Source: Anaeromyxobacter sp.
GTDB lineage: Bacteria; Myxococcota; Myxococcia; Myxococcales; Anaeromyxobacteraceae
Direction: 5' to 3'
NCBI GenBank assembly: GCA_025360965.1
Contig: JANYBC010000214.1
Location: 1-64,000, forward strand
DNA length: 64,000 nt
Shown here: positions 6,243-30,111 of the stretch, one piece after another
How positions within the stretch are numbered: position 1 is the first letter of the stretch
How the letters are laid out: every line of letters starts with the position of its first letter
Notes under the pieces: generated by a model
The model's input: only the letters and a program-made list of their open reading frames with translations
Told to the model about the DNA's origin: nothing
The model's database searches: none
Made by a program: the position numbers and the translations under genes

Positions 6243-7103
6243 CTAGGTCCCGGTGTAGACGTGCGCGCTCTCCTCGGCGGTGGGCAGCATGCTGATGCCG
6301 AGGTAGGTGAACATCACCACCGCGAAGCCGATGATGGCGACCCAGGCCGCCCGGTCGCCGCGCCAGCCACGCACCTTGCGCAGGTGCAGGTAGGCTCCGT
6401 AGATCAGCCACGTTACCAGCGACCAGTTCTCCTTCGGGTCCCAGACCCAGAAGTCGCCCCAGGCGCTCTTGGCCCAGACCGAGCCGACCAGCAGGCCGAC
6501 GGTCAGCAGCACGAAGCCGAAGCGGACCGCGTCGTAGGAGATGCGGTCCAGGTCGAGCGGCTCGCCCGAGAGCACCGAGCCGGCCTTCATGGTGGTGAGC
6601 CGGTGCACGAAGGGGATGCGGCTGGAGAGCAGCTGCACCACCGCCACGCCGGTGGCGATGGCCACCGCGGCGTAGCCGACGAAGTAGACCATCACGTGCG
6701 GCACGAACCAGCCCGACTGCAGGGCGGGCGGCAGCTTGACGATCTCGGCGTCCCACTTGGTGAGGGCGTAGGCCATCGAGCCGAAGGTCATGAGCCCGGC
6801 GGCGACGCCGAAGAGGCGCGTCTTGTAGAGCCGCTCGAAGACCACGTAGAGCAGGGCGATGCAGAAGGCGAAGAAGACCAGCGACTCGAAGAGCGACTTG
6901 AAAGGCGCCCGGCCGGCCTCGACCCAGCGGCCGGCTATCACGGCGGTGTTGAGCGCCACGCCAGCGACCATGAGCGCGGTCCCGGCCCGCCCCGGCAGGC
7001 GGCTGGGTGAGACCCATGCCAGCCCGTAGGCGATGGTGGAGGCCAGGTAGAGCAGGCTGGTGAGGGCGAAGAAGGGGTGCTCGACGAAGACGTACTGGAG
7101 CAT
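6243..7103 (-). CDS. ccsA: cytochrome c maturation protein CcsA/ResC (haem handling)
   Basis: Membrane component of System II cytochrome c biogenesis that, with ResB, carries haem across the membrane and attaches it to CXXCH motifs. The 286-residue protein has about eight hydrophobic segments. The tryptophan-rich WWD signature is clear (WGDFWVWDPKENWSLVTW), and conserved histidines flank it, including the one in FVPHVMVYF. It lies 15 bp downstream of resB in one operon. The neighbourhood contains two clients, CoxB and the 28-haem protein. Confidence 0.95.
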   Translation of the reverse strand: MLQYVFVEHPFFALTSLLYLASTIAYGLAWVSPSRLPGRAGTALMVAGVALNTAVIAGRWVEAGRAPFKSLFESLVFFAFCIALLYVVFERLYKTRLFGVAAGLMTFGSMAYALTKWDAEIVKLPPALQSGWFVPHVMVYFVGYAAVAIATGVAVVQLLSSRIPFVHRLTTMKAGSVLSGEPLDLDRISYDAVRFGFVLLTVGLLVGSVWAKSAWGDFWVWDPKENWSLVTWLIYGAYLHLRKVRGWRGDRAAWVAIIGFAVVMFTYLGISMLPTAEESAHVYTGT

Positions 7104-7118
7104 CTGGTCTCTCCCGGG

Positions 7119-8783
7119 TTACGAGTCGGCCGGCGCGACCGGCGCCTGGCGGTCGATGCCGCCGCCACGGAAGCGCGGCTCGACGTAGAGCATGTAGAAG
7201 ACGCCGACGCAGATGAGCGCGAAGCCGACGAAGACCCAGAGCACGCCCGGGTCCCGCACCGCCTCGAGCCCGGAGTAGGTCGGGTCCTCGGGGTTGTAGT
7301 TGACCTGGTAGAGCGTCCACCCGCCGAAGTCGAAGGGGTCGTTCACCGAGATGACCGCCCTGGCGAAGGTGGGCCCCTGGCCCGCCGTGACGTGGGAGAG
7401 GAAGGCCTTGACCTCCTTGTCCCGCTTCTCGAAGACCAGCGCGGACTGCCCGTCGCGCAGGAAGACGCCCCGCGGCTGGGCGGCCGTGGCCAGGGTCTCG
7501 CTGACCAGGCCGTGGACGCTGGTCTCGATGACCACCGCCGGGTTGCGGGGCTCGCGGCTCCGGGTCTGGTAGAAGGCGCCGCGGGCCGAGTGGGCCAGCA
7601 GTCGGTCGATGCGGACCACTCCGCCGAGGAGCGAGAGCCCCTCGGCGAGCGGCTGGGCTCCGTCGCCGTCGGCCCGGTGGACCACCGCCTGCCGGTCGGA
7701 CATCGAGACCAGCACCGAGGTGCTGACGCCTGGAGGCGGGGCGGGCCGCTGCTGGCCGAAGGCGACCGCCAGCGTGCCGTCGGGCGTCGACACCACCTCA
7801 CCGGCCTGCAGCCAGGTGGACCGGCCGGCCAGCGTCACCAGCAATGCCGGCGGCCCCTCGGAAGCCGGGGTGGTGCGCGTCGCCACCTCGAAGTCGGGGT
7901 AGAACGCCTTGACCCGGAAGGAGTCCCCGCCCGGCAGGCGGTGCCGGTCGAGGTCGGGGATGGGCTCGGCCCGGGAGTTGAAGACGTCGACCCGGTAGGC
8001 GTCGAAGCTGGTCTTGAGCTTGAAGTCGTCCATGACGACGCCTTCCCGGACGATGCGAACCTTCTCGTAGTAGCCGATCCGGTACTCGGTCTCGTAGTTG
8101 ACGAGGTCGAACTGGTCGAGCCTGAGCTGGAAGGGGAGCTTCTCGAAGGCTCCGGTGGCCACGCCGCCGCGGGTGACGCGGACCTGGTGGGCCACGTCGC
8201 CGCCGGCGAAGAGGTCGATGCGCCCGCGCACCGAGAGCATGCTGGAGGCGGCGGCCCCGGCGCCCGAGACCAGCAGGCCGACGTGAGCGATGAAGAAGCC
8301 GGCCCGGCGCGCCGAGAGGGGCAGGCGCAGCGAGGCCGAGGCCAGGATGGCGGCGCCGAAGAGGGCCATCAGGCCGGCGTAGGGCAGGCCGTGGAAGATG
8401 TCGTCGAAGCGAAGCGCCAGGATCAGGCCGGCCACCGCCGGGTACTTGGCCCGGTAGAGCTCGGCTGGCTTGCCCTGCAGGATCAGCGTCCCGAGGATGG
8501 CGAAGATGGCCAGGGCGATCAGCAGGGAGGAGGTGAAGCGGAACCCCGAGAGGGTCGACCGCAGCCGCCCCGGCACCACGAAGGAGAGGCCGAGCACCAC
8601 CAGGCTGGCACCTCCGGTGGCCGCCACCAGCGTGGTCGGTCCGGGCGGGATCCAGATCTGGAGGATTGCGCCGATGGCCATGGCGCCGAAGACCAGCAGC
8701 GTGGTCAGGCGGGCCTCGCGCGCACCGGCGCTGACCGAGGCCGCCGGCGAGGGGCCGGCGGGAGTAGGAGACGTGCTCACCAT
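7119..8783 (-). CDS. resB: cytochrome c biogenesis protein ResB/Ccs1
   Basis: Partner of CcsA in System II cytochrome c maturation. The 554-residue protein has N-terminal helices (about 25-45, 55-75, 85-105, 130-155), a further segment near 160-185, then a large periplasmic domain. It ends with a membrane helix near 520-540, the usual ResB topology. The family segment FGGWTLYQVNYNPED lies just before the last helix. The ATG at 8783 is preceded by a strong GGAGG. The 8784-8935 stretch upstream should hold its promoter, but no convincing -35/-10 pair was seen. Confidence 0.92.
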   Translation of the reverse strand: MVSTSPTPAGPSPAASVSAGAREARLTTLLVFGAMAIGAILQIWIPPGPTTLVAATGGASLVVLGLSFVVPGRLRSTLSGFRFTSSLLIALAIFAILGTLILQGKPAELYRAKYPAVAGLILALRFDDIFHGLPYAGLMALFGAAILASASLRLPLSARRAGFFIAHVGLLVSGAGAAASSMLSVRGRIDLFAGGDVAHQVRVTRGGVATGAFEKLPFQLRLDQFDLVNYETEYRIGYYEKVRIVREGVVMDDFKLKTSFDAYRVDVFNSRAEPIPDLDRHRLPGGDSFRVKAFYPDFEVATRTTPASEGPPALLVTLAGRSTWLQAGEVVSTPDGTLAVAFGQQRPAPPPGVSTSVLVSMSDRQAVVHRADGDGAQPLAEGLSLLGGVVRIDRLLAHSARGAFYQTRSREPRNPAVVIETSVHGLVSETLATAAQPRGVFLRDGQSALVFEKRDKEVKAFLSHVTAGQGPTFARAVISVNDPFDFGGWTLYQVNYNPEDPTYSGLEAVRDPGVLWVFVGFALICVGVFYMLYVEPRFRGGGIDRQAPVAPADS

Positions 8784-8935
8784 GAACCTCCAAGAACCTT
8801 CGGCCCGATTCTCCCGGACCGGGAGGTGAGCGAGGGCGGGAACATGTCACAACCGGCGCCTCATCGGAAGCGGAACAGGCGGGATCCTGCGCATTCCCGG
8901 TGCGACGATGTGGCACCCCAACTGTCGACTCTCAG

Positions 8936-8982
8936 TAAAAAAGAACGGAGCGAGGGCCAGCCGCGTGCGCGACTGGCCCTCC
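8936..8982 (-). terminator. rho-independent terminator for the 9008-10318 gene
   Basis: The inverted repeat GAGGGCCAG (8952-8960) with CTGGCCCTC (8973-8981) forms a perfect 9-bp stem. On the minus strand it is followed after about ten bases by a run of six T (8937-8942). It lies just past the stop of the minus-strand lipoprotein gene and separates it from resB. Confidence 0.7.
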
Positions 8983-9007
8983 GGGGTGCTGCGCCGCCGA
9001 CTCCGCC

Positions 9008-10318
9008 CTACATCATGGGGGTCATCCCCGGGGCGCCGGCCGGCGGCGGCGTGGTGTCGTCCGGCGTGGCCGGTGCCGTCGGCGGGGACTGCATCCCGGG
9101 GCCGCCCATGCCCGGCTCGTCGCTGTCGTGCTCCGGGGTCTCGCCGGAGTCGCCCGGGTCGCTCAGCTCGGGCTGCTCGACGGCCAGCGTGCAGTTGTCG
9201 GCCCAGGTGCCGGCGCCGGTGACCACCGTGCCCACGCGACCCTGGCGGACCACGCAGGCGGCCGGGGCCTCGGGCCGGTCGCAGAGGTACCACTCCTTGA
9301 ACTTCATGGTGAGCGGGGCCCCGGTGGTGGCCGGCGCGTAGCAGGCCCGGCCGAGGTAGTAGCTGGCGTTCCACGGCGTCCCCGGCACGTCACCGTGCGG
9401 CGCGGCCAGGGGGTTGATCATCGGCGGCGTCGAGGTGCGGTCGAGCGGCTTCCAGTTGGTGACGATGGCGAAGGTGCGGCCCGCCACGCCAGGGACCCAT
9501 GCGGCTCGCGCCAGCAGCAGCTCGTCGCCGCCCGGCCCGGAGAGCAGCTCCTGCGGGGAGGCCACCCGGACGCGGCGGATGCCGGCGCCGTTCTTCATGC
9601 CGACGTAGGCGGCGGTGCGCGGGTTGGTCCCATCGGTCGTGAACTGGAGCAGCCGGTAGTGGACCGACTTGGCGCCCTGGCCGTTGGCGAAGCCGGCCAG
9701 CAGGAAGCCGTCGCCGCTGTAGAGGGGCTGGACCGCCTTGAGGTTGCGCAGGTTGATGGCCAGCCTGCCGACGCCGCGGTGCATGTGCCCGCCGCGCGCC
9801 AGCCAGCCGCCGGCCACCGGCTTGAAGTCCGACTGGACGTTTGAGCCGACCGGGCGGGCCTCCAGCAGCCAGCTGAAGAGGTGCTTGCGCTCCATCTTCA
9901 CGCCCAGCACGAAGTTGGCGGAGGCGGTGCAGGCCCCGCCCGCGTCACGGACCACGCAGCGGTCGGCAGGGCCATAGATCATCCGGTCCCCGACGGCTGG
10001 CGTCCCCTCGGACTGGACCGCCTCCTCGACCCGCTCCATGACCCGGCGCAGCTCGAGGTTGAGCGCCTTCAGGTCGGCGCGGATGGTGGCCAGCTCATCA
10101 CCGTCGGCCGGGGTGGTGGCGAGCAGAGCCTCGGGCGGCTGGCCGGGCTCGGCGGCCAGGGCGGCCACCGGCAGTCCCTCGCTGGCGCCTCCCTCGATCT
10201 CGAGAGTCAGGCCGGCCACGTCGGGCGTGGCGCCCGAGAAGTCGTTGCTCTTCTGGCCGCAGGCGGTCAGGGCCAGCGCCAGCGCAGCGGCGAAAAGCAG
10301 GTGGGTGGTGGTCCTCAT
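9008..10318 (-). CDS. lipoprotein of unknown function
   Basis: The 436-residue protein begins with a signal peptide and lipobox LTAC (Cys20), so it is probably lipid-anchored. No family is recognised. Visible features are a short helical heptad-like stretch near residues 75-95, a central mixed alpha/beta region with several cysteines (possible disulfides), and a low-complexity C-terminal tail rich in Pro, Gly, Asp and Met ending in PGMTPMM. It is transcribed alone, with a terminator downstream and the gltB promoter divergent upstream. Codon use looks like its neighbours. An extracellular structural or binding role is possible, but nothing in the sequence specifies it. Confidence 0.75.
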   Translation of the reverse strand: MRTTTHLLFAAALALALTACGQKSNDFSGATPDVAGLTLEIEGGASEGLPVAALAAEPGQPPEALLATTPADGDELATIRADLKALNLELRRVMERVEEAVQSEGTPAVGDRMIYGPADRCVVRDAGGACTASANFVLGVKMERKHLFSWLLEARPVGSNVQSDFKPVAGGWLARGGHMHRGVGRLAINLRNLKAVQPLYSGDGFLLAGFANGQGAKSVHYRLLQFTTDGTNPRTAAYVGMKNGAGIRRVRVASPQELLSGPGGDELLLARAAWVPGVAGRTFAIVTNWKPLDRTSTPPMINPLAAPHGDVPGTPWNASYYLGRACYAPATTGAPLTMKFKEWYLCDRPEAPAACVVRQGRVGTVVTGAGTWADNCTLAVEQPELSDPGDSGETPEHDSDEPGMGGPGMQSPPTAPATPDDTTPPPAGAPGMTPMM

Positions 10319-10485
10319 GGTCGGTCTCTCCCGGAGCGGCGGCGGGGTCGTTCCCGCGTGACCGCACCCTCACCTCAACACGGCGGCGCGGTCCAGGTTG
10401 CGCCGATATCTCCAGCCCCGTCCGGGAGTCGCGACGGCTGCCTGCATTCCGGGCAGTTGCATGAAATCCATCAGTCGTGGCGGCC

Positions 10486-10515
10486 TTGACGGTCCTTCCC
10501 CGCTTGGGTCAAAAT
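10486..10515 (+). promoter_or_regulatory. candidate sigma-70 promoter for gltBD
   Basis: TTGACG (10486-10491) and CAAAAT (10510-10515) are separated by 18 bp and lie 33 bp before the gltB start. The -35 is a good match and the -10 matches four of six. The rest of the 10319-10547 gap, shared with the divergent lipoprotein gene, shows no other feature. Confidence 0.4.
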
Positions 10516-10547
10516 CACCGGTCCATTTCAGCGCGGACAGGGAGAAG

Positions 10548-15158
<4,611 letters not shown>

Positions 15159-16673: not shown

Positions 16674-18830
16674 CTACTTGCTGGCCGGCGCGTGGGGCGG
16701 GTGGCACTCCACGCAGGTGTTGGTCACCTTCACGGCCCGGTGCGCGGCGGCTTGCCGCGGTGAGTCAGCCGCGTGGCAGCCGGCGCAGAGCGCGGCGCCG
16801 GTCCGCTCGAGGAGGTGCTTGCCGGAGGCGGCGTGAGGCGCGTGGCACCCGAAGCAGGCCTCGCGCTGGACCGGCGCGTGCGCCCGAGGCGCCACCACCA
16901 GGCCGGCAAAGTCGTGGCAGTCGGCGCACGGCCCGATCCCGCGCCCCTTCAGTTCGGCCGGCACCGGCTTCGGCCCCGGCGGCGCGTGGCAGGCCTCGCA
17001 GCTCCTCTCCTCGAAGGGCGGGTGGAGCTCCGGGCGCAGCAGCTTCTTGGCCCGGCTGACGTGAGGCACGTGGCAGCCGCTGCAGTCCGAGGCGCCGACG
17101 TCGAAGCCACCGTGGCGGGCCGCCAGGGCGCCGCTCCCGAGGTCGTGGCAGCCGGCGCAGAGCTCCGGGATGGCCTGGCGCAGGAGCCTCCGCACCGCCG
17201 AGCCGTGGCCCTGGTGGCAGGCGAGGCAGCCCGCGGCCACCGGCCGGTGGACGGTGGCGCCCGGCTTCTCCAGCTCCCCCTTCAGGTCACCGTGGCAGTC
17301 GAGGCAGAGGGTGCGGTGGGGCCTGGCCAGCAGCCGCGGCTCCGCCGAGCCGTGAGGATCGTGGCAGTCGGCGCAGGGGCCGTCGGCGAACGGGGGATGG
17401 ATCGAGGTGGCTCGGGCGTAGGTCTTGCGCGTGCCGACGTGGCAGCCGACGCAGACGGCCGCGCCGTCGGACACCAGGGTGGCCCGGCCACCGGCGTGGG
17501 GCTGGTGGCAGGTTCGGCAGTCACCGCCGCGGAACGGGCTGTGCAACCGCTGGCCGGGGCGCATGGCCTCGGGCGCGCCGTGGCAGCGGACGCAGAGCGG
17601 CCATTCCTCCCCGGTCAGGAGCCGCCGCCGGTCGGAGACGTGAGGGGCGTGGCAGGTGAGGCAGGCTCCCTTCGGCTGCGGCCTGTGGACGTAGCTGGCC
17701 GGGCGCCAGGCCGCCTGTCCGGCGCCGTGGCACTGCAGGCAGAGCGGCTCGACCGCCTGCCTGACGAGGTGCGTGCCGCCACCGTGGGGATCGTGGCAGG
17801 CCTCGCAGCGGCCCTCGCGGACCGGGGCGTGGGCATCGGCGCGCCGGCCCCACTCGGCCACCTGCTGGTGGCATTCGCCGCAGCGCTTGCCGGGCGGGAG
17901 CTTGAGCAGGCCGGCCTGGTCGCTGGAGTGCGGGACGTGGCAGCCGGTGCACTGGCCGAGGGCGGCCGGCCGGTGCGTCGAGCCCTTGAGCTTCTCGACG
18001 ATGGCCGGGTGGCATCCGAGGCAGAGCGGCCGCTCGCCCTGAAGGAGCAGCGCCGGGCGATTGCCGGCGTGGGGAGTGTGGCAGGTGGTGCAGCGGCCCT
18101 CGCGGACCGGGGCGTGGACCACCGTCGCCCCAAGCTCCTTCGCGAGGCCGTCATGGCAGTCGAGGCAGAGCGCCGGCGGCGGCTTCTGCCGCTCGAAGGG
18201 CCGGGCCGAGGCGGGATCGGCGTGACAGCTGGAGCAGTCTGCGACCACCGGGTGGGCGGCGCTGCGGAGCAGGTGAGGCGCGCCGACGTGGACGCGGTGG
18301 CAGTCGCCGCAGCGGGCCTGGTCAACCGGGTAGCCGCCGTGGAGCTTCGCCAGGTCGACGTGGCAGCCGCGGCAGAGCGCGGGGACGGGGGCGACGAGGA
18401 GCTGCCTCTCGCGGGAGCCGTGCGGTGAGTGGCAGGAGGTGCAGCGGACCTGGGAGGCCAGGGCCTTCCCATGTACCACCTCGAAGGCCCGGTCGGCGTG
18501 GCAGGTCTGGCAGGCGATCGCCCGTTGGGGGAGGCCGGCGGAACCGATGGGGCCGCCCTGGGCCGGCGTGCGGCCCCCGTCGCCGCGGCCGTGAGGCTGG
18601 TGACAGGCCAGACAGGGCTTGTCGGCCTGGTACGGGGCGTGGACCGTCGCCAGCCCCCGATTCGCCTGGACGGCGGGGGCATGGCAGGCCAGGCAGGGGT
18701 TGCGTTCGACCTCGGCCGGATCGATGGCCACCTTCGACAGTCGGGGCTGGCCGGGGAGGACGCAGCCGGCGACCAGCAGCGCCAGGGTGGCGGCCAGAGA
18801 GGCGAGGGGTTCGCGGGATCGGGCGGGCAC
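16674..18830 (-). CDS. 28-haem c-type cytochrome lipoprotein
   Basis: The chain contains 28 CXXCH haem-attachment motifs, one per about 26 residues. Many are followed by xPH, as in the doubled-CXXCH cytochrome family, where the extra histidine is the likely distal ligand. Motifs run from CLACH near residue 46 of the mature-like region to CVECH ten residues before the end, so nearly the whole protein is haem-bearing. The GTG at 18830 gives a compact signal peptide with lipobox LVAGC at its end, hence a predicted lipid-anchored periplasmic or surface protein of 718 residues. The frame stays open to a TTG at 18896. Its role is probably electron storage or conduction across the envelope. No porin or oxidase partner lies beside it. 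Maturation would depend on the ResB/CcsA system encoded at 6.2-8.8 kb. Confidence 0.9.
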   Translation of the reverse strand: MPARSREPLASLAATLALLVAGCVLPGQPRLSKVAIDPAEVERNPCLACHAPAVQANRGLATVHAPYQADKPCLACHQPHGRGDGGRTPAQGGPIGSAGLPQRAIACQTCHADRAFEVVHGKALASQVRCTSCHSPHGSRERQLLVAPVPALCRGCHVDLAKLHGGYPVDQARCGDCHRVHVGAPHLLRSAAHPVVADCSSCHADPASARPFERQKPPPALCLDCHDGLAKELGATVVHAPVREGRCTTCHTPHAGNRPALLLQGERPLCLGCHPAIVEKLKGSTHRPAALGQCTGCHVPHSSDQAGLLKLPPGKRCGECHQQVAEWGRRADAHAPVREGRCEACHDPHGGGTHLVRQAVEPLCLQCHGAGQAAWRPASYVHRPQPKGACLTCHAPHVSDRRRLLTGEEWPLCVRCHGAPEAMRPGQRLHSPFRGGDCRTCHQPHAGGRATLVSDGAAVCVGCHVGTRKTYARATSIHPPFADGPCADCHDPHGSAEPRLLARPHRTLCLDCHGDLKGELEKPGATVHRPVAAGCLACHQGHGSAVRRLLRQAIPELCAGCHDLGSGALAARHGGFDVGASDCSGCHVPHVSRAKKLLRPELHPPFEERSCEACHAPPGPKPVPAELKGRGIGPCADCHDFAGLVVAPRAHAPVQREACFGCHAPHAASGKHLLERTGAALCAGCHAADSPRQAAAHRAVKVTNTCVECHPPHAPASK

Positions 18831-18936
18831 GGTGGCTGGCCGGCGCGCGCGGGGCCGGAGGGGTCGGAGATTGCCAAGGGACTGGCGACGAGTCAACGCG
18901 ACACCGCACCTCAGGGGGGGGCTGCCGGCCCGGCCC

Positions 18937-19869
18937 TCAACGCCCCTTCAGCTTCGCCAGCCTGACCAGGAACCGGTCCCGCGCCGCCAGCCGCTCGGCC
19001 ACCGGGCGAGCCGTCCAGTCGATCAGGCCGCGGCCGCTCTTGGCCCCCAGCTGGCCGCTGGCCACCAGTTCTCGGAGCACCGCTGGCGCCTGCTCGGCCT
19101 TCGACAGCTCCGACCCCAGGTTGTCGAGGAGGCGCAGCCAGGTGTCGAGCCCACCCAGGTCGGCGGTCTCGATGGGGCCCGCGAAGGGCCAGCGGAGGCC
19201 CGGGCCCTCGGTCACCACCGCATCGATCTCCTCGGCGCTGGCCACGCCCAGCTCGACGAGGTGGAAGGCCTCGCGCAGCAGGGCCGCCTGCAGCCGGTTG
19301 GCGACGAAGCCGGGCACCTCCCGGCGCAGCAGCACCGGGTGCTTGCCGAGCCGCCGCAGCATCGCCAGCACCTCTGCCACCGCCGCCTGGGGCATGGAAG
19401 GGTGCGGCACCACCTCGACCAGCGGGATCAGCTGGGCCGGGTTGAAGAAGTGCGCGACGACCATCCGCTCCGGCCGCCGGGCCCGGGCCGCCAGCCGGCT
19501 GATGGGGAGCGTCGAGGTGGTGGAGGCGATGAGGGTGTCGTCCCCGACCACCCTCTCGATGCGCTCGAAGAGCGCCTGCTTCTCCTCGAGGAGCTCCGGG
19601 ATGGCCTCCACGACAACGCCGGCCCCGGCCAGCGCCGCCTCGAGCCGGGTGGCGGGGCGGATCCGGGAGCGGGCCGCCGCCGCCTCGGCCGGGGAGAGCA
19701 CCTCCTCCTCGACCAGCAGCGCCAGCGAGGTCTCCACGGCGGCGAGTCCTGGGGCCAGCCTGGCCTCGTCGAGGTCGTGGAGCCTGACCCGGGCGCCGGC
19801 CTGCGCGAAGAGCTGGGCGATCCCGTGCCCCATCACCCCCGCCCCGATCACCACCACGCCCCGGTCCAT
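18937..19869 (-). CDS. 3-hydroxyacyl-CoA dehydrogenase family protein
   Basis: NAD-dependent oxidation of a 3-hydroxyacyl substrate, as in fatty-acid beta-oxidation or 3-hydroxybutyryl-CoA metabolism. The 310-residue protein has the Rossmann motif GAGVMGHGIAQ at its N-terminus. It also has the substrate-domain signature with catalytic His in AHFFNP, and the FVANRLQAALLREAF segment before the C-terminal helical domain. The single-domain length is that of stand-alone dehydrogenases. The related L-gulonate dehydrogenase/lambda-crystallin group is an alternative. The ATG at 19869 is preferred because GTGGAG lies seven bases upstream; a GTG at 19881 is also possible. It follows the acyltransferase gene closely on the same strand. 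Confidence 0.85.
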   Translation of the reverse strand: MDRGVVVIGAGVMGHGIAQLFAQAGARVRLHDLDEARLAPGLAAVETSLALLVEEEVLSPAEAAAARSRIRPATRLEAALAGAGVVVEAIPELLEEKQALFERIERVVGDDTLIASTTSTLPISRLAARARRPERMVVAHFFNPAQLIPLVEVVPHPSMPQAAVAEVLAMLRRLGKHPVLLRREVPGFVANRLQAALLREAFHLVELGVASAEEIDAVVTEGPGLRWPFAGPIETADLGGLDTWLRLLDNLGSELSKAEQAPAVLRELVASGQLGAKSGRGLIDWTARPVAERLAARDRFLVRLAKLKGR

Positions 19870-21449: not shown

Positions 21450-23168
21450 TCAGCTGACCTTGACCACCCCGGTCTCGGTCCCGTCGGCGTCGTGGGTGTG
21501 GATTGCGCAGGCCAGGCAGGGATCGAACGAGTGGATGGTGCGCAGCGCCTCGAGCGGCAGCTTGGGGTCGGCGATGGGGTTGCCGACCAGCGAGGCCTCG
21601 TAGGGACCGGGCTGCTCCTTGCCGTCCCGCGGGCCGGCGTTCCAGGTCGAGGGGACCACGCACTGGTAGTTCTTGATCTTGCCGTTCTCGATGACGCACC
21701 AGTGCGAGAGCGTGCCGCGCGGCGCCTCGTGGAAGCCGACGCCGTGGTAGGTGCCGGAGGCCATCTTGGGGAGGGGGTCGACGAAGATGCTGGTGTCGCC
21801 CTTGCCGATGTTGGCCACCAGCAGGTTCCAGTGCTTGAGCGTCAACTCGGACATCATGGCGCAGCGGATGGCCCGCGCCGCGTGCCGGCCCAGGGTGGAG
21901 TGGAGCATGGCCGGGGTCACGTCGATCTTGTGGATGGTCTTGACGGTCGAGATGGCCGCCCCCACCCACTTCACGGTGAGCGGGTGGTTGGTGAGGAAGC
22001 CGACCAGCACCTGGGCCAGCGGGCCCACCTGCATGGGCTTCCCCTCGAGCCGCGGCGCCTTGACCCAGCTGTACTTCTGCGGGGGCGCCGTCTCGGCCTT
22101 CCACTCGCCGCTGAACTTGGGGACGGTCTCCTCCTCCCACGGGCCGCGCTGCCAGTCGCCGTCGTAGTGCGAGTGGGCGATCGACTCGGTGACGTTCTTC
22201 TTGAGGTAGTCGTCGTTCCAGTTCTCGATCTTCCGCACGCCGGCCTGGCCGGCCATGATGACGCCGCCGGGGAGATCGAACTGGGTCATCTTGGCGTCGG
22301 TCGGCAGGTCGGGCACGGCCAGGTAGTTGGTGACGCCGGCGCCGTACTTGAACCACTCCGGGTAGAAGCCGGCCACCGCGGCCACGTCGACCAGGTAGCA
22401 CTGGGTGACGAAGCCGCTGACCTCGTCGAGCAGCGCCTTCACCTGGTAGAGCTTCGACATGTTGAGGGTGGAGGGGCTGTCGAGGTTGATGGCGTTGGCC
22501 ACGCCGCCCACCGCCAGGTTCTGGATGTGCGGCGTCTTGCTGCCGAGGATGGCCACGATCTGGTTGGCCTTGCGCTGGATCTCCAGGGCCTGCAGGTAGT
22601 GGGCGACCGCCAGGAGGTTGACCTCGGGCGGCAGCTTCATGGCCGGGTGGCCCCAGTAGCCGTTCTGGAACGGCCCCAGCTGGCCGGCGGCGACGAAGCC
22701 CGCCAGCTTCGACTTCACGGCGGTGAGCTCTTTGACCGAGTTTCCGGGCCAGTTGGAGATCGACTCGGCCAGCGCCGAGGCCTTGGCGGGATCGGCCTTG
22801 AGCGCCGAGACCACGTCGACCCAGTCGAGCGCCGAGAGGTGGTAGAAGTGGACGATGTGGTCGTGAAGCGAGTGCGCCGAGATGATGATGTTGCGGATCA
22901 GCTGGGCGTTGAGCGGCACCTCGAGCCCGAGCGCGTTCTCCACGCTGCGCACCGAGGTGATGGCGTGCACGGTGGTGCAGACGCCGCAGATGCGCTGGGT
23001 GAAGGCCCAGGCGTCGCGCGGGTCGCGGCCCTGAAGGATGGTCTCGATGCCGCGCCACATGGTGCCGCTCGACCAGGCGTTCTTGATCTGGCCGCCGTCG
23101 ACCTCGACGTCGATCCGCAGGTGCCCCTCGATGCGGGTGATGGGGTCGATGGTGATGCGCTGGCTCAT
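21450..23168 (-). CDS. hybC: [NiFe] hydrogenase large subunit, HybC type
   Basis: Carries the Ni-Fe active site that oxidises H2. The 572-residue protein has the N-terminal metal motif RICGVCTTVH (C61, C64) and the C-terminal motif DPCLACAIH (C551, C554). A specific protease normally cleaves after that last His; the tail to be removed here would be 15 residues. Membership in the membrane-bound uptake group 1, Hyb/Hyd-2 type, follows from the hybO-A-B-C gene order. It overlaps hybB by four bases. No maturation genes (hypA-F, endopeptidase) occur in the window, so they must lie elsewhere. Confidence 0.96.
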   Translation of the reverse strand: MSQRITIDPITRIEGHLRIDVEVDGGQIKNAWSSGTMWRGIETILQGRDPRDAWAFTQRICGVCTTVHAITSVRSVENALGLEVPLNAQLIRNIIISAHSLHDHIVHFYHLSALDWVDVVSALKADPAKASALAESISNWPGNSVKELTAVKSKLAGFVAAGQLGPFQNGYWGHPAMKLPPEVNLLAVAHYLQALEIQRKANQIVAILGSKTPHIQNLAVGGVANAINLDSPSTLNMSKLYQVKALLDEVSGFVTQCYLVDVAAVAGFYPEWFKYGAGVTNYLAVPDLPTDAKMTQFDLPGGVIMAGQAGVRKIENWNDDYLKKNVTESIAHSHYDGDWQRGPWEEETVPKFSGEWKAETAPPQKYSWVKAPRLEGKPMQVGPLAQVLVGFLTNHPLTVKWVGAAISTVKTIHKIDVTPAMLHSTLGRHAARAIRCAMMSELTLKHWNLLVANIGKGDTSIFVDPLPKMASGTYHGVGFHEAPRGTLSHWCVIENGKIKNYQCVVPSTWNAGPRDGKEQPGPYEASLVGNPIADPKLPLEALRTIHSFDPCLACAIHTHDADGTETGVVKVS

Positions 23169-24385
23169 GACGCCGTCCCTTCAGTGAGGCCGGCCGGAAC
23201 GTCACGCCCAGGAGGGGTGGAGACGCCGGCGAGGATGGGGAACTTCCGGACTACCAGGACGTAGATGACCGTCTCGGTGGCAATCAGCCCGAGTGTGACG
23301 AGGATCTCCGAGACGCTGGGGAAGTAGACCCAGCCGTTGCCCGGGTCGTAGGCGATCAGGAACACGTCGACGCGGTAGAGCGCGCCGCCCAGCATGGCCA
23401 GCAGCGCCGCCTGGAGCTGCTGGTGAGGGCGCCCGAGCTGCCCCTGGCGCAGGAAGATGACGGCCGAGGCCAGGAAGATCACGATCTCGGCCCAGAAGAA
23501 GAAGGCCATCCGGCCCGCCGAGTAGACCAGGCCGAGCTTCCCCTCCAGGCCGAGCACCACGAAGCGGAGCGCCAGGAAGGCCAGGATGGCGCCGGCCACG
23601 TACCTGCCCAGGGTGGCCAGCAGCCGGTTCTCCAGCGGCCGCATGAAGGCGGCGCTGGAGAAGATCGACTCGAAGTAGAGCACCCCGAAGCCCATGGCGA
23701 AGGCGGTGAACAGGAAGTAGAGGGGCAGGAAGCCGCTGTGCCACAAGGGGTGCAGCTTCAGGCCGGCCATCATCATCAGGCCGCCCAGGCTCGACTGGTG
23801 CATGGTCGGGAGCAGGAGCCCGAAGGCGATGAGGAAGGGCAGGGCCTTCTCGGCGCGCGGCAGCCAGCGGGCGGCGAAGCGCGCCCGGCCAGGAACCATG
23901 CCGGCCGCAAGCCCCTCCAGCCAGGCCGGGGAGAGCTCGAGGAAGATGACCACGGTGTAGGCCATCATGCAGAGCGCCACCTCGAGGAGGACCGAGGTGC
24001 TGCTCCAGTATTGGGGCGAGACCGGGATGCGCCACATGGTCCAGTAGCGGCCCAGGTCGAAGGCCACCGCCACGCCGGCCACGCCGTAGCCGAGCAGGCT
24101 GGTGAGCAGCGCCGGGCGGACCAGCGGGTGGTACTTCCCCTTGTTGAGGATGAAGACCAGGAAGGCCAGGACGTAGCCGCCGCTGGCCAGGCCGGTACCG
24201 ACCACCACGTCGATGGCGATCCAGATGCCCCAGGGATAGCCGTCGTTCATGGAGGTGGCGGCCCCCAGCCCCATGATGAAGCGATAGAGGCCGGCGATGG
24301 TGCCGAGCCCCCAGAGCAGGAGGAGGAACGTGACGCCGGGGGTGAGGAGCTTCCCGTGGACCGGGCGCGGCGGGGCGCTGCTCAT
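23165..24385 (-). CDS. hybB: HybB, NrfD-family membrane subunit of hydrogenase 2
   Basis: Integral membrane quinone-interacting subunit that connects the hydrogenase to the quinone pool and, in E. coli Hyd-2, supports reversible energy-coupled turnover. The 406-residue protein has about ten hydrophobic helices and the NrfD/PsrC-type segment NDGYPWGIWIAIDVVVGTGL near residue 47. It contains no haem or cluster motif. It overlaps hybA upstream and hybC downstream by four bases each, typical of tight translational coupling. Confidence 0.93.
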   Translation of the reverse strand: MSSAPPRPVHGKLLTPGVTFLLLLWGLGTIAGLYRFIMGLGAATSMNDGYPWGIWIAIDVVVGTGLASGGYVLAFLVFILNKGKYHPLVRPALLTSLLGYGVAGVAVAFDLGRYWTMWRIPVSPQYWSSTSVLLEVALCMMAYTVVIFLELSPAWLEGLAAGMVPGRARFAARWLPRAEKALPFLIAFGLLLPTMHQSSLGGLMMMAGLKLHPLWHSGFLPLYFLFTAFAMGFGVLYFESIFSSAAFMRPLENRLLATLGRYVAGAILAFLALRFVVLGLEGKLGLVYSAGRMAFFFWAEIVIFLASAVIFLRQGQLGRPHQQLQAALLAMLGGALYRVDVFLIAYDPGNGWVYFPSVSEILVTLGLIATETVIYVLVVRKFPILAGVSTPPGRDVPAGLTEGTAS

Positions 24386-25260
24386 GAGTCGTTCTCCTCG
24401 GCAGCGGTGACGGCATGGCGGTTCTTCCAGGCCACGATGGCGAAGGTCCCGAAGAGCACCATGGGGGCGAAGGCGCCCTGGTAGATGGCGTGCTGGACCG
24501 TCTCCACCAGCGCCGGCGCCGGCTCGTTGCCGAGGGCCGGCAGCCCGAACGGCGCGAAGCCGACCGGGGAGAGGTAGAGGCAGGCCGTGCCGCCACCCTG
24601 GGTCTCACCGTAGATGCCGCCCTGGTAGGCGGCCGGCTTCGCCGCCAGGCGGCGCTTGGCCTCGGCCAGCAGCTCGGGCCGGCTGCCCGACACCACCGCG
24701 CCGCGCGGACAGACCTCGGCGCAGGCTGGGCCCTTGCCCTGGTCCCACCGATGGCGGCAGAGCTCGCACTTGATGATCTTCGGCGAGGCCGAGGCCCACT
24801 GGAACTTCGGCACGTTGAAGGGGCAGGCGATCTGGCAGTTGCGGCAGCCGACGCACCGATCGACGTCGTACTGAACCACCCCGCGCTTCCCCTTGTGCAG
24901 CGCGCCCATCATGCAGACCGAGGAGCAGGCCGGGTCGGCGCAGTGCATGCATTGCGCCTTGAGGTAGCCGGTCTCGCTCTCGGTGCTCCACTGCCGGATG
25001 ACGCTGAGCGTGCTGCCGTTCAGGTCGGCCGGGGCATCGTAGGGCGCCCCGCCGATCATGGCGACGTCGGGCGCCAGGCCGTTGGCGTCGCGGCAGGCGA
25101 TCGAGCAGGCCCGGCACCCGACGCAGCGGGTGGCGTCGAAGAGCAGGCCCAGGTCGTCGGGGCCGCTTGGCTTGGGCGTGCGCGCCTCGGCCGTGGTGAC
25201 CGCGGCGGCGCCGGCGGCGGCGCCGAGGACCTTGAGCGCACCGCGACGGGTCATGGTCAT
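24382..25260 (-). CDS. hybA: HybA, Tat-exported iron-sulfur subunit of hydrogenase 2
   Basis: Ferredoxin-like electron carrier between HybO and HybB on the periplasmic side. The 292-residue protein begins with a Tat signal (MTMTRRGALKVLG). It has four cysteine clusters for 4Fe-4S binding: CVGCRACSIAC near 45, CMHCADPACSSVC, CVGCRNCQIAC, and CELCRHRW to CAEVC. A C-terminal membrane helix (about 263-285) matches HybA. ATG 25260 is preceded by GAGGAGAAG and overlaps the hybO stop (ATGA). The longer open frame to 26409 on this strand is a shadow of hybO. Confidence 0.94.
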   Translation of the reverse strand: MTMTRRGALKVLGAAAGAAAVTTAEARTPKPSGPDDLGLLFDATRCVGCRACSIACRDANGLAPDVAMIGGAPYDAPADLNGSTLSVIRQWSTESETGYLKAQCMHCADPACSSVCMMGALHKGKRGVVQYDVDRCVGCRNCQIACPFNVPKFQWASASPKIIKCELCRHRWDQGKGPACAEVCPRGAVVSGSRPELLAEAKRRLAAKPAAYQGGIYGETQGGGTACLYLSPVGFAPFGLPALGNEPAPALVETVQHAIYQGAFAPMVLFGTFAIVAWKNRHAVTAAEENDS

Positions 25261-26369
25261 GGCTTCTTCTCCTCGCCTTCGGCCCTCTTGACCTGGACAT
25301 TCAGCTTGCGGGAGGCGACGTAGCTGGCGCCGGCCGCCGCGCCGACCACCAGGCCACCGAGGCCGGCAGCGATGGCGCCCACCTCGCCCTTGCCGCCGCC
25401 GACGTTCGGGTAGGCCATGGGAGCGGTCGGCCTGTCGATCGGCATGTTCTGGTGGATCGGCACCGTGAAGGCGATCCCCTGCTCGGTGCAGCCGATGCAC
25501 GGGTGGCCGATGCCGATGGGCCAGGCCCCCGGCACCTCGCAGAAGTGGAGCAGCGAGCAGTTGGCGTGGGTCTGCGGCCCCTTGCAGCCGAGCTTGTAGA
25601 GACACCAGCCCTCGCGGTGGCCGGCGTCGCCGAAGGCCTGAGCGAAGCGGCCGTTGTCGAAGTGGGCGCGGCGCGGGCAGTCGTCGTGGATGACGCGGGC
25701 GTAGGCGAACTTGGGCCGGCCCTTGTCGTCGAGCGCCGGCAGCGTCCCGAAGGTGGCGAACTGCAGCACGGTGCCGAGCAGGTTGTAGGGGTTGGCCGGG
25801 CAGCCCGGGAGAGTGACCACGGTCTTGCCGGGGAGCGCCTGCGCCACCCCGACCGCGCCGGTCGGGTTGGGCGACGAGGAGGGGATGCCGCCCCACGAGG
25901 CGCAGGAGCCGATGGCGATGACCGCGGCCGCCTTCTCCGCCACGCGCCTGACCGTGTCGATGGCCTTGTGGCCGCCGACGTAGCAGTAGATGCCGTCGTC
26001 CTTGAGCGGGATCGAGCCCTCGACGATCAGCACGTACTTGCCGGCGTTCTCCTTCATGGTCTTCTCGAGCACGGCCTCGAACTGGTAGCCGGCGGCCGCC
26101 GCCAGCGTCTCGTGGTAGTCGAGCGAGATCAGGTCGAGGATCAGCTCGCCGAGGTCGGGCGCGCTGGAGCGCAGCAGCGACTCGGTGCAGCCGGTGCACT
26201 CCTGGAAGTGCAGCCAGATGACCGAGGGCTTCTTCCCCTTGGCCACGTTCTCCGCCATCTTCTCGCCGGCCCACGCCGGCATCCCGACCGAGGCGGCCGC
26301 CGCGGTGCAGATCTTGACGAAGTCTCGGCGGGTGACGGCGGAGGGTTCGGCTACCTCTGGGTGCGGCAT
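25257..26369 (-). CDS. hybO: [NiFe] hydrogenase small subunit, HybO type
   Basis: Relays electrons from the NiFe site through three iron-sulfur clusters. The 370-residue protein starts with the Tat motif TRRDFVKI, which would export the folded pair. Cluster cysteines occur in ECTGCTES, GSCASWGG and LPGCPANP (proximal), and in CLYKLGCKGPQT and HFCEVPGAWP to CIGC for the others. The position that is an extra Cys in O2-tolerant Hyd-1 enzymes is Gly here (ECTGC), suggesting a standard O2-sensitive enzyme. A C-terminal membrane helix (about 325-345) follows. ATG 26369 has a strong GGGAGG; it is the first gene of the operon. Confidence 0.95.
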   Translation of the reverse strand: MPHPEVAEPSAVTRRDFVKICTAAAASVGMPAWAGEKMAENVAKGKKPSVIWLHFQECTGCTESLLRSSAPDLGELILDLISLDYHETLAAAAGYQFEAVLEKTMKENAGKYVLIVEGSIPLKDDGIYCYVGGHKAIDTVRRVAEKAAAVIAIGSCASWGGIPSSSPNPTGAVGVAQALPGKTVVTLPGCPANPYNLLGTVLQFATFGTLPALDDKGRPKFAYARVIHDDCPRRAHFDNGRFAQAFGDAGHREGWCLYKLGCKGPQTHANCSLLHFCEVPGAWPIGIGHPCIGCTEQGIAFTVPIHQNMPIDRPTAPMAYPNVGGGKGEVGAIAAGLGGLVVGAAAGASYVASRKLNVQVKRAEGEEKKP

Positions 26370-27364: not shown

Positions 27365-27853
27365 TTGAGCGAGCACCGCAGCAAGGCGGCGGAGCTGTAC
27401 CGGACCTGGGGTCCGGCCGTCTACCGCCGCTGCCTCCGCATCCTGAAGGACCAGGAGGCGGCCAAGGACGCCACGCAGGAGGTCTTCGTGAAGCTGATCC
27501 GCGACATGTCGAAGCTCGAAGACCGCGAGACCGTGCTCCCCTGGATCTACCGGGTGGCCACCAACCACTGCCTCAACCAGCGGCGCAACGGCTCGCGCCG
27601 GGGCGAGGACTTCGAGGCGCCGCCGCTGGAACTGGTCGCGTCGGCCGACCACGACACCCTGCCGGACCGGCTGCTGGTCCAGAGCATCCTCTCCAGGTTC
27701 GACGCCACCACCCAGACCGTCGCCGTTGGGGTGCTGGTCGACGGCATGGAGCAGGAGGAGGTGGCCGTGGTGCTCGGCCTCTCACGCCGCACGGTGGCCC
27801 GCAAGCTGGCTCGCTTCCTGGACCTCGCCCGACACCACGTCGACCGGAGCTGA
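27365..27853 (+). CDS. ECF-family RNA polymerase sigma factor
   Basis: Small sigma-70 family factor of 162 residues with region 2 (YRRCLRILKDQEAAKDATQEVFVKL to WIYRVATNHCLN, about 17-73). A linker follows, then the region 4 helix-turn-helix (EEVAVVLGLSRRTVARKLARFL) at the C-terminus. TTG at 27365 is chosen because GAGAGGAGG precedes it by nine bases and upstream codons add nothing. The next gene, a zinc-finger anti-sigma, follows after two bases, so the pair forms a signalling switch. It is expected to direct transcription of its own operon, which includes a caspase-like protease. The 27222-27364 upstream stretch contains a short GC hairpin but no recognisable ECF promoter. Confidence 0.88.
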   Translation: MSEHRSKAAELYRTWGPAVYRRCLRILKDQEAAKDATQEVFVKLIRDMSKLEDRETVLPWIYRVATNHCLNQRRNGSRRGEDFEAPPLELVASADHDTLPDRLLVQSILSRFDATTQTVAVGVLVDGMEQEEVAVVLGLSRRTVARKLARFLDLARHHVDRS

Positions 27854-27855
27854 CG

Positions 27856-28608
27856 ATGACCGCCCGCTGCCCTTCCGATCTCGCGCTGGAACGCCACCTG
27901 CTCTCTCCGGAGGGCACCGCGCTCATCGGCCACCTGGCGGCCTGCCAGGACTGTGCGGCCCGCCTCGCCACCATGCAGCGGCAGGGCGACGACTTCCTCC
28001 GCTTCGTCTACCCGGCCACCGTCGAGGCGGTCGAGGCGGCCGCCGCGCGCCCCTCCCTGGCGCTGGCCTGGCGCCGCTGGTTCGCGCTGGTCCCGGCCCT
28101 CGGTGGCGCCGCGGCGCTCCTCTTCTTCCTGGCCCGCCCGCAGGCCCCGCCCGACGACTACCTCGGCACCAAGGGCGGGGGACCGCTCGGCCTCGCCGTC
28201 TTCGTCCAGGATGGGCCGAGCCCTCGCCTGGCCCGCGACGGCGAGCCGGTGCCGGCCGCCGCCGCGCTGCGCTTCCGCGTTCGCATCGCCCGGCCGTGCC
28301 ACCTCTGGCTGCTCTCGGTCGACGCCCGCGGCCAGGTCTCGCGCCTCTACCCGACGGCGGGTGAGGGCGGGGCCTCGGTGGAGCAGAGCGCCGACCTGCC
28401 CGGCGGCGCGGTGCTCGACGGCCAGCCCGGTCCGGAGCGGATCGTCGCGCTCTGCGCGCCTGCGCCGCTCGGCTGGGCCGCGGCCGAGTCGGCGGTGCGC
28501 GCCTCGCTCGGTGCGCCCGGCCCGGATTCGGTGCGGCGCGCGGCCTCGATCGGCGGGCTTCCGGCCGGCACCGCCCAGGACTCGCTGCTGCTCGAGAAGA
28601 AGCCCTAG
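27856..28608 (+). CDS. membrane anti-sigma factor with DUF4384-like domain
   Basis: The 250-residue protein starts with a zinc-finger-type anti-sigma domain (H26, C30, C33 in HLAACQDC). It crosses the membrane once (about 75-95), then exposes a periplasmic domain containing HLWLLSVDARGQVSRLYP, characteristic of DUF4384 domains often attached to caspase-like or kinase proteins. The zinc finger would hold the adjacent ECF sigma inactive; the outer domain could sense envelope signals. It lies 2 bp after the sigma gene and 3 bp before the caspase gene. The assignment as anti-sigma rests on domain order and position. Confidence 0.82.
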   Translation: MTARCPSDLALERHLLSPEGTALIGHLAACQDCAARLATMQRQGDDFLRFVYPATVEAVEAAAARPSLALAWRRWFALVPALGGAAALLFFLARPQAPPDDYLGTKGGGPLGLAVFVQDGPSPRLARDGEPVPAAAALRFRVRIARPCHLWLLSVDARGQVSRLYPTAGEGGASVEQSADLPGGAVLDGQPGPERIVALCAPAPLGWAAAESAVRASLGAPGPDSVRRAASIGGLPAGTAQDSLLLEKKP

Positions 28609-28611
28609 ACC

Positions 28612-30111
28612 ATGCGCCGCCTGCTCGCCACCCTCGCGCTCACCCTGCCGCTCAGCGCCGCCGCCCTGTCCGGGCGCGTGGCGGTGGTGGCGGGCATGAA
28701 CCAGGGGGCCGCCGGCCGGCCCAAGCTCTGGTTCGCAGAGAAGGACGCCGAACGGTTCGAGCGGGCGCTGGTCGAGCTGGGCGACTTTCCGCCCGATGGC
28801 GTCGAGCTTCTGCGCGGCCCGACCGCGGCCACCTTCCGCGAGGCGCTGGTCCGCGCCGAGGCCCGCGTCCAGGCTGCTCGCGCCAGCGGCGAACGGACCC
28901 TGCTGCTGGTATTCTACTCCGGCCACGCCGGCGCAGGCGGCCTGGAGTTCGGCGCCGACCGCGTCGGCTACGACGAGCTCAGGGCGGCGGCGGCCAACTC
29001 CAGCGCCGAGGCCAAGGTGGTGGTGGTCGACGCCTGCGAGGCCGGCGCGCTCACCCAGGTGAAGGGGGCGCGGGCCGAGGCGCGGCTCGACTTCGCCCTG
29101 CCGGTCGACGAGGTGCGCGGCACCGCCTTCATCGCGTCGACCGCGGTGGGCGAGGCGGCCCAGGAGTCGGCCGCCATCGGCGGCAGCTTCTTCACCCACC
29201 ACCTCGAGGTGGCGATCCGCGGCGCCGGGGACGCCAACGGAGACGGCCAGGTCACGCTGGCCGAGGCCTTCCGCTACACCTCGCAGGCGACCGTCTCCGA
29301 CACCTCGGCGACGCGCACCGGGGCCCAGCACCCGACCTACGACTTCCGCATGTCCGGCCGCGGCGACGTGGTGCTGGCCGACCTGCGCCGCGCCGAGGCC
29401 AGGCTGCTGGTGCCGGTCGACCCGGGGGCCCTCTACGTGCTGCGCGGTCCGCGCGGCCTGACCGCCGAGGTGCCGGCCGGCGCCACCGAGCTGGCGCTGG
29501 CGCTCCCGGCCGGCGAGTACGCCGTGGAGCGGCGCGCCCGCAACGGCCGCGCCCTCGGGCAGGTCACGCTCGGCCGCGGCGAGACCCGCGCGCTGCCGCA
29601 GCTGATCCCGACCCGCTACGAGGTGGCCCGCTCCAAGGGCGGCCCGCTGCCGACCGAGATCTGGGTCGGCGCCGGCCTGCAGACCACCGGCCTGCCCGGC
29701 AGCCTGGCGCTCCCGGGCTTCCGGCTCGGCCTGCGACGCGAGGTCGGACCGCTGGCGCTGGTGGTCCACGCCGACTACGCCGTCGGTGACGTCACCGAGC
29801 GGGCCCTCACCTACGGCTACACCCGCGCCGGCGGCGGTCTCAGTGCGCTGGTTCCGGTGGCCGGCGGCCGGGCGCTGCTGGAGGGCGGCCTCGACCTCGG
29901 CGGCGGCTGGAACAGCCAGTCGCTCCCCGACGGACGCCACTTCGAGACCGGCGACCTGACCGCCGGCCTGGCGCTGCGAGGCTCGATGCCGCTCGGGCCG
30001 CTCCGCGCGGCGCTCGATCTGACCGGGGGCGCCAAGATCTTCAGCCTCGACGGCGGCCGGGTGGTCCGACCTGTCGCCAACCTCTCGCTCCTCCTGCTCT
30101 ACGGGCTCTGA
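28612..30111 (+). CDS. secreted caspase-like (peptidase C14) protein
   Basis: The 499-residue protein has a signal peptide (cleavage after about residue 18), then a caspase-fold domain with the catalytic pair visible: His105 in FYSGHAG and Cys142 in VDACEAG. The late caspase segment contains a perfect 12-residue EF-hand loop, D207-x-N209-x-D211-G-x-V-x-x-x-E218, a feature seen in many bacterial C14 proteins and suggesting calcium binding. From about residue 270 a beta-rich region, then repeated amphipathic strands ending in LLLLYGL, resemble an outer-membrane barrel or beta-sandwich. It probably cleaves after basic or acidic residues in the periplasm or at the surface; substrates are unknown. 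It is the third gene of the ECF operon. Confidence 0.85.
   Translation: MRRLLATLALTLPLSAAALSGRVAVVAGMNQGAAGRPKLWFAEKDAERFERALVELGDFPPDGVELLRGPTAATFREALVRAEARVQAARASGERTLLLVFYSGHAGAGGLEFGADRVGYDELRAAAANSSAEAKVVVVDACEAGALTQVKGARAEARLDFALPVDEVRGTAFIASTAVGEAAQESAAIGGSFFTHHLEVAIRGAGDANGDGQVTLAEAFRYTSQATVSDTSATRTGAQHPTYDFRMSGRGDVVLADLRRAEARLLVPVDPGALYVLRGPRGLTAEVPAGATELALALPAGEYAVERRARNGRALGQVTLGRGETRALPQLIPTRYEVARSKGGPLPTEIWVGAGLQTTGLPGSLALPGFRLGLRREVGPLALVVHADYAVGDVTERALTYGYTRAGGGLSALVPVAGGRALLEGGLDLGGGWNSQSLPDGRHFETGDLTAGLALRGSMPLGPLRAALDLTGGAKIFSLDGGRVVRPVANLSLLLLYGL

Follow-up and report, generated by a model that had tools for sequence, protein, structure and literature searches.

A 28-haem cytochrome of Anaeromyxobacter sp., a predicted lipoprotein with an MtrA-like predicted fold and a possible periplasmic electron wire

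Whether electrons pass across the Gram-negative periplasm on small diffusing cytochromes or along one long bridge is an open question. A stretch of 64,000 nucleotides of Anaeromyxobacter sp. DNA (here called the window), part of a genome of 3.8 Mb in 259 contigs (G000), carries a gene that makes a good test object for the bridge question, encoding a compact, conserved 28-haem protein that is predicted to be lipid-tethered and MtrA-like in fold and that stands as an orphan in the genome. Does this protein act as such a bridge, and what else might it do? The features that bear on the answer are collected in Table 1.

Table 1. Features of the window, with positions counted from its first letter
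Feature	Positions	Strand	Basis or remark
28-haem c-type cytochrome gene	16674..18830	minus	GTG start, 718 aa; motif count, profile matches, start alignment with G003 and G001a
Lipoprotein signal peptide (predicted), ending in lipobox VAG/C	18765..18830	minus	Cys codon 18762-18764
Haem-binding region (predicted)	16701..18695	minus	28 CXXCH in doubled repeats of roughly 48 residues
Promoter-like block TGTCGCGTTGACT-N11-CCTTGGCAA	18871..18903	minus	5' of GTG start, conserved with G003
hybOABC-type [NiFe] hydrogenase cluster	21450..26369	minus	Profile matches; neighbour, not conserved partner
hybC	21450-23168	minus	
hybB (NrfD)	23165-24385	minus	
hybA	24382-25260	minus	
hybO	about 26369 to 25257	minus	
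System II cytochrome c maturation, CcsA-like	6243-7103	minus	PF01578, E 2.2e-46
System II cytochrome c maturation, ResB-like	7119-8681	minus	PF05140, E 1.1e-27

In the minus-strand frame 16677-18947 there are exactly 28 CXXCH motifs, the number that an earlier note on this DNA had given for the 718-residue protein. CX3-4CH, CXCH and unused CXXC are all absent from this frame, and every other frame of the 64-kb window has at most one CXXCH motif. Shuffling the protein 2000 times produced a mean of 0.37 motifs and a maximum of 4. Translation from GTG 18830 yields a protein with 60 His and 57 Cys, 56 of the latter lying in haem motifs and the remaining one being the lipobox Cys (residue 23 of the 718). 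The doubled motifs with xPH that the same note had described are present as CXXCH-x-PH followed by LCxxCH, and neighbouring motifs lie 21-28 residues apart, with a single gap of 34. With its motifs matched one-to-one in most of the nine aligned family members, the 28-haem gene is no freak open reading frame. Its mature product contains about 25 aa, or 2.6 kDa, for every haem; peptide-minimised cytochromes with less than 5 kDa per haem are electron-transfer proteins (PMC7096707), and the value computed here therefore places the cytochrome inside that class.

The mechanical open reading frame begins farther upstream, at TTG 18896, which would give 740 aa. We rejected this start because the TTG is that of a TTGACT belonging to an upstream block kept in the nearest relative, G003. 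Since GTG 18830 lines up with a GTG/Val in G003 and in one of the two homologues of genome G001 (G001a), and since the distal TTG falls inside the conserved block, we kept GTG 18830, as the earlier note had. Alignment of the upstream regions of G000 and G003 scored 27, where shuffled sequences averaged 11.6 (sd 2.1). By exact pattern search, TGTCGCGTTGACT-N11-CCTTGGCAA occurs once in G000 and once in G003 and is absent from five other genomes, and the idea of a regulon controlled through it was dropped on that distribution. A scan with the sigma-70 consensus found no promoter upstream of the cytochrome and did not pick up the block, so we treat it as a promoter-like element of the gene and call it promoter-like only.

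We aligned nine homologues, the window protein included. The identical 28 sites, with no extras, are present in the window protein, G003, the two G001 copies, G002 and G021; the G022 homologue has all 28 plus four more, and that of G023 has 27 of the 28 plus four more, with a contig end falling inside its first repeat. The G009 homologue (L109:14001-15695) ends after 24 sites, the last four missing, and the three frames just downstream of its end hold no haem motifs; the shortening seems to reflect either a true truncation or a gap in the assembly. Homologous contigs include those of Anaeromyxobacter sp. and of 'Myxococcales bacterium' SKS1.bin67. Among 20 relatives placed in a tree, the 28-haem proteins group in a single clade (support 99/98), which pairs with the 42-haem proteins G023_42 and G013_42 (98/98). 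The G003 cytochrome is 70% identical to the window protein, and the two 28-haem paralogues of G001 (L007 and L107) are 53% and 49% identical to it. Between G000 and G003, dN/dS for the cytochrome is about 0.55, compared with 0.12-0.34 for five other gene pairs from the same genomes, which suggests that the cytochrome evolves fast yet under constraint; in Geobacter and Shewanella, cytochromes of the outer-membrane, extracellular and Ppc kinds are fast-evolving too (PMC12977616). The protein belongs to the Paired_CXXCH_1 family (PF09699; E 4.6e-121, 394.7 bits over 11 stretches, cut-off 20.6) and scores below the threshold for the GSU2203 family (NF041028; 206 bits, cut-off 325). A distant relative on a Desulfuromonadales contig (L045:3587-7996) is a 1470-aa frame with 73 CXXCH motifs.

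Histidines outside the CXXCH motifs are kept too, with 29 of 32 conserved in most or all of the nine aligned rows. About 29 conserved extra His, together with the 28 proximal His, would be enough for bis-His ligation at every haem, which argues that the cytochrome is probably a conduit and not an enzyme, with no catalytic open site. A catalytic role of the nitrite-reductase type was dropped because PDB fold matches to such enzymes were not significant and the distal His would suffice for all haems.

The earlier note had read the protein as a long, wire-like haem chain and had proposed a structure prediction as a check. By sequence search, the top PDB chain is 6r2q_A (E 1.6e-16), which is annotated 'Cystathionine beta-synthase' in the sequence listing and carries the Foldseek title 'Structure of the Mtr complex'; we take chain A to be MtrA. 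We ran two template-free AlphaFold2 models of the peptide only, without haems, from alignments that held no PDB sequences. The whole mature chain gave a mean pLDDT of 70.7 and a pTM of 0.57, and a C-terminal 14-haem model (haems 15-28), built on a more even alignment, gave 86.5 and 0.78. Confidence in the full-length model tracked alignment depth. Low pLDDT at residues 403-453 was considered as disorder or a broken chain and that explanation was dropped, the values there being about 74-91 with a deeper alignment. For both models, 6r2q_A was the sole PDB fold match below 0.001 (full length: E 1.8e-5, prob 1.00, TM 0.52 by target length; haems 15-28: E 1.5e-7, prob 1.00, TM 0.55 by target length). 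The predicted fold is thus an MtrA-like haem stack, and the wire-like reading gains support from the two models, from the density of about 25 aa per haem and from the supply of distal His.

The surroundings of the gene offer little in the way of a fixed partner. According to the earlier note, no porin or reductase partner lies nearby. The first half of that claim stands, as no porin, quinol dehydrogenase or secretion gene is linked to the cytochrome gene; the second overlooked hybOABC, which lies upstream on the same strand at a distance of about 2.6 kb, though in a neighbourhood that is not conserved in G003. A search for the MtrB/PioB porin (PF11854) found none in G000 or in 24 relatives, and the control genomes likewise gave no match above the cut-off. 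Elsewhere in G000, NapC/NrfH-type tetrahaem proteins are candidates for quinol oxidation. Farther along the window, at 27365-30111, a sigma-factor-like gene (named from sequence only), a small gene and a caspase-domain (Peptidase_C14) gene stand in a row.

Does the neighbouring Hyb-type hydrogenase have the cytochrome as its dedicated electron acceptor? The arrangement in the window would permit it: between hybOABC and the cytochrome lie an acyltransferase gene and a 3-hydroxyacyl-CoA dehydrogenase (3HCDH) gene, all on the same strand, with small gaps (4 bp between the two genes and 106 bp separating the 3HCDH stop codon from the cytochrome GTG). In G003, whose HybC is 92% identical, however, contig C29 carries hyb and contig C9 the cytochrome, and we dropped the hydrogenase as a conserved link for that reason. 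The G003 cytochrome adjoins the same gltD as the window gene, and its upstream neighbour there is an unrelated, divergent gene. The promoter-like block also sits between 3HCDH and the cytochrome, and with HybA and HybB identified, a standard quinone-linked electron path is encoded within the cluster itself; we regard a dedicated hydrogenase link as very improbable. The cytochrome's neighbours differ again in G001, G002, G009, G021 and G022. Because hyb and the cytochrome lie on separate contigs in G003 while the block immediately 5' of the cytochrome gene is kept there, the gene looks like an orphan in a changing neighbourhood, without a conserved partner.

The reading that we tentatively favour, at somewhat less than an even chance, is that the cytochrome is a periplasmic electron wire tethered to the outer membrane. 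The pre-protein would be exported and then lipidated at Cys23, and 28 covalent bis-His haems would be attached, possibly by the CcsA/ResB-type machinery encoded 8 kb away. The mature chain would form an extended haem stack like that of MtrA but about 2.8 times as long. Most likely, the wire would relay electrons between donors that are quinol-linked in the inner membrane or soluble in the periplasm and acceptors in the outer membrane or outside the cell, and it would also store them along its length. We infer the haem attachment, the continuity and length of the chain, its location, the direction of electron flow and the partners.

As a general rule, lipoproteins without Asp at position +2 are sorted to the outer membrane, and the proposed placing of the cytochrome there follows this rule. 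The lipid anchor proposed in the earlier note is predicted for the window protein, G003 and G001a, which have a clear lipobox, and no lipobox was seen in G001b or G002; the anchor is therefore not, on present sequences, a fixed property of the family. The L107 paralogue of G001 has a predicted signal peptide without a lipobox, and anchored and soluble 28-haem forms may coexist in one G001 cell. Peptide-minimised cytochromes lengthen linearly with each added haem, and a periplasm of ~200 A would take about 27 haems to span (PMC7096707); MtrA, with 10 haems, measures 104 A by SAXS (quoted in PMC4245776). Set against the span of about 27 haems, 28 haems plus a lipid tether fit a periplasmic wire anchored in the outer membrane. 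The one-to-one match of the 28 sites in most family members also favours such a wire. Against it stand the anchor's absence from some relatives, the lack of a linked porin or quinol dehydrogenase gene, the dN/dS value, which suits both Ppc-type carriers in the periplasm and cytochromes on or outside the cell surface, and relatives with 24, 31 or 32 haems, which indicate that 28 is not strictly required. A stronger version, in which a single molecule crosses the whole periplasm as a direct link from an inner-membrane quinol dehydrogenase, held by its lipid at the outer membrane and replacing diffusible PpcA-type shuttles, with its haem number set by the width of the periplasm, seems to us unlikely.

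The rate of change and the predicted lipoprotein nature would also suit a wire exposed on the cell surface, the lipoprotein being flipped to the surface or released from it and passing electrons to minerals, humics or partner cells. The dN/dS of about 0.55 resembles that of outer-membrane and extracellular cytochromes of Geobacter and Shewanella (PMC12977616), and a related 17-haem protein of G000 is located in a PPIase/NHL cluster. That cluster is absent beside the 28-haem genes, however, and the cytochrome lacks a linked porin or secretion gene; moreover, the nearest fold, MtrA, sits inside a porin in the solved complex and reaches the periplasm. On balance, surface exposure is possible but rather improbable. 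Orphan status without conserved partners would also suit an electron capacitor, whose haems hold electrons against acceptor scarcity with no fixed vectorial path, a role proposed for large cytochromes of A. dehalogenans 2CP-C (PMC2330069). Storage alone, however, would not need a conserved linear MtrA-like architecture, and a storage role is compatible with the periplasmic wire that we favour; as a full account of the protein, the capacitor is doubtful. If its role turned out to be no more than that of a capacitor or a surface cytochrome, the protein would simply join the set of Anaeromyxobacter cytochromes as an ordinary member. What makes it interesting is the 28-site architecture common to most clade members, its orphan state and the coincidence of its length with the estimate of about 27 haems.

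Other multihaem genes of G000 were seen along the way. After the 17-haem relative (locus L121, contig C76) come genes for a PPIase, an NHL-repeat protein and a 4-motif cytochrome, where the contig ends. On contig C130 (L158:7347-10997), a frame of 1216 aa has 29 CXXCH, a lipobox-like N-terminus and weak family scores. On contig C3 (L156:10874-14914), a frame of 1346 aa joins a 4Fe-4S domain, a YpdA-like flavin pyridine-nucleotide reductase domain and about 20 CXXCH. After it, at 9987-10877, 8479-9990 and 6842-8476, come two proteins of 10 and 13 haems and one of 544 aa that has no family matches. If the 1346-aa fusion is one protein, it would connect NAD(P)H to a haem wire.

Among characterized systems, the closest likeness is to MtrA (6R2Q chain A), which shares the repeat of CXXCH-x-PH followed by LCxxCH and, by prediction, the bis-His haem chain, and from which the cytochrome differs in having 28 haems instead of 10 and a lipobox. 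Measured against the MtrAB/PioAB porin-cytochrome systems, it agrees in predicted fold and lacks a linked MtrB/PioB porin. The best functional family is that of the DmsE decahaems (TIGR03508), with a score above the cut-off (251.5 bits against 192.2, summed over repeats in five stretches); the window protein has 28 CXXCH where that family has about ten, and it has no DMSO-reductase or porin operon. Similarity to OmcS is slight (E 0.17). In OmcS and OmcE filaments, the next subunit supplies a His ligand to one haem. With about 29 conserved extra His for 28 haems, the cytochrome would have no missing ligand that demands a His from a neighbouring subunit, as a polymeric nanowire of the OmcS, OmcE or OmcZ type might. 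The PCC3 periplasmic cytochromes of iron oxidisers, a proposed bridge between the two membranes, have a median of 21 haems and about 26 aa per haem (PMC5566968); their genes cluster with those for a porin, an extracellular cytochrome and an inner-membrane protein, whereas the cytochrome gene is linked to none of these. The 40-haem cytochrome of A. dehalogenans 2CP-C, for which the capacitor role was suggested, is likewise a very large multihaem c-type protein, probably from the same bacterial family (PMC2330069); the sequence comparison covered 42-haem and 26 plus 16-haem relatives, from which the 28-haem clade is separate (99/98). With that protein of 40 haems (PMC2330069), one protein of 86 CXXCH (cited by PMC7096707) and PCC3 proteins with haem medians of 21 and 34 (PMC5566968), large repeat cytochromes are already known, and the 28-haem protein adds one to them.
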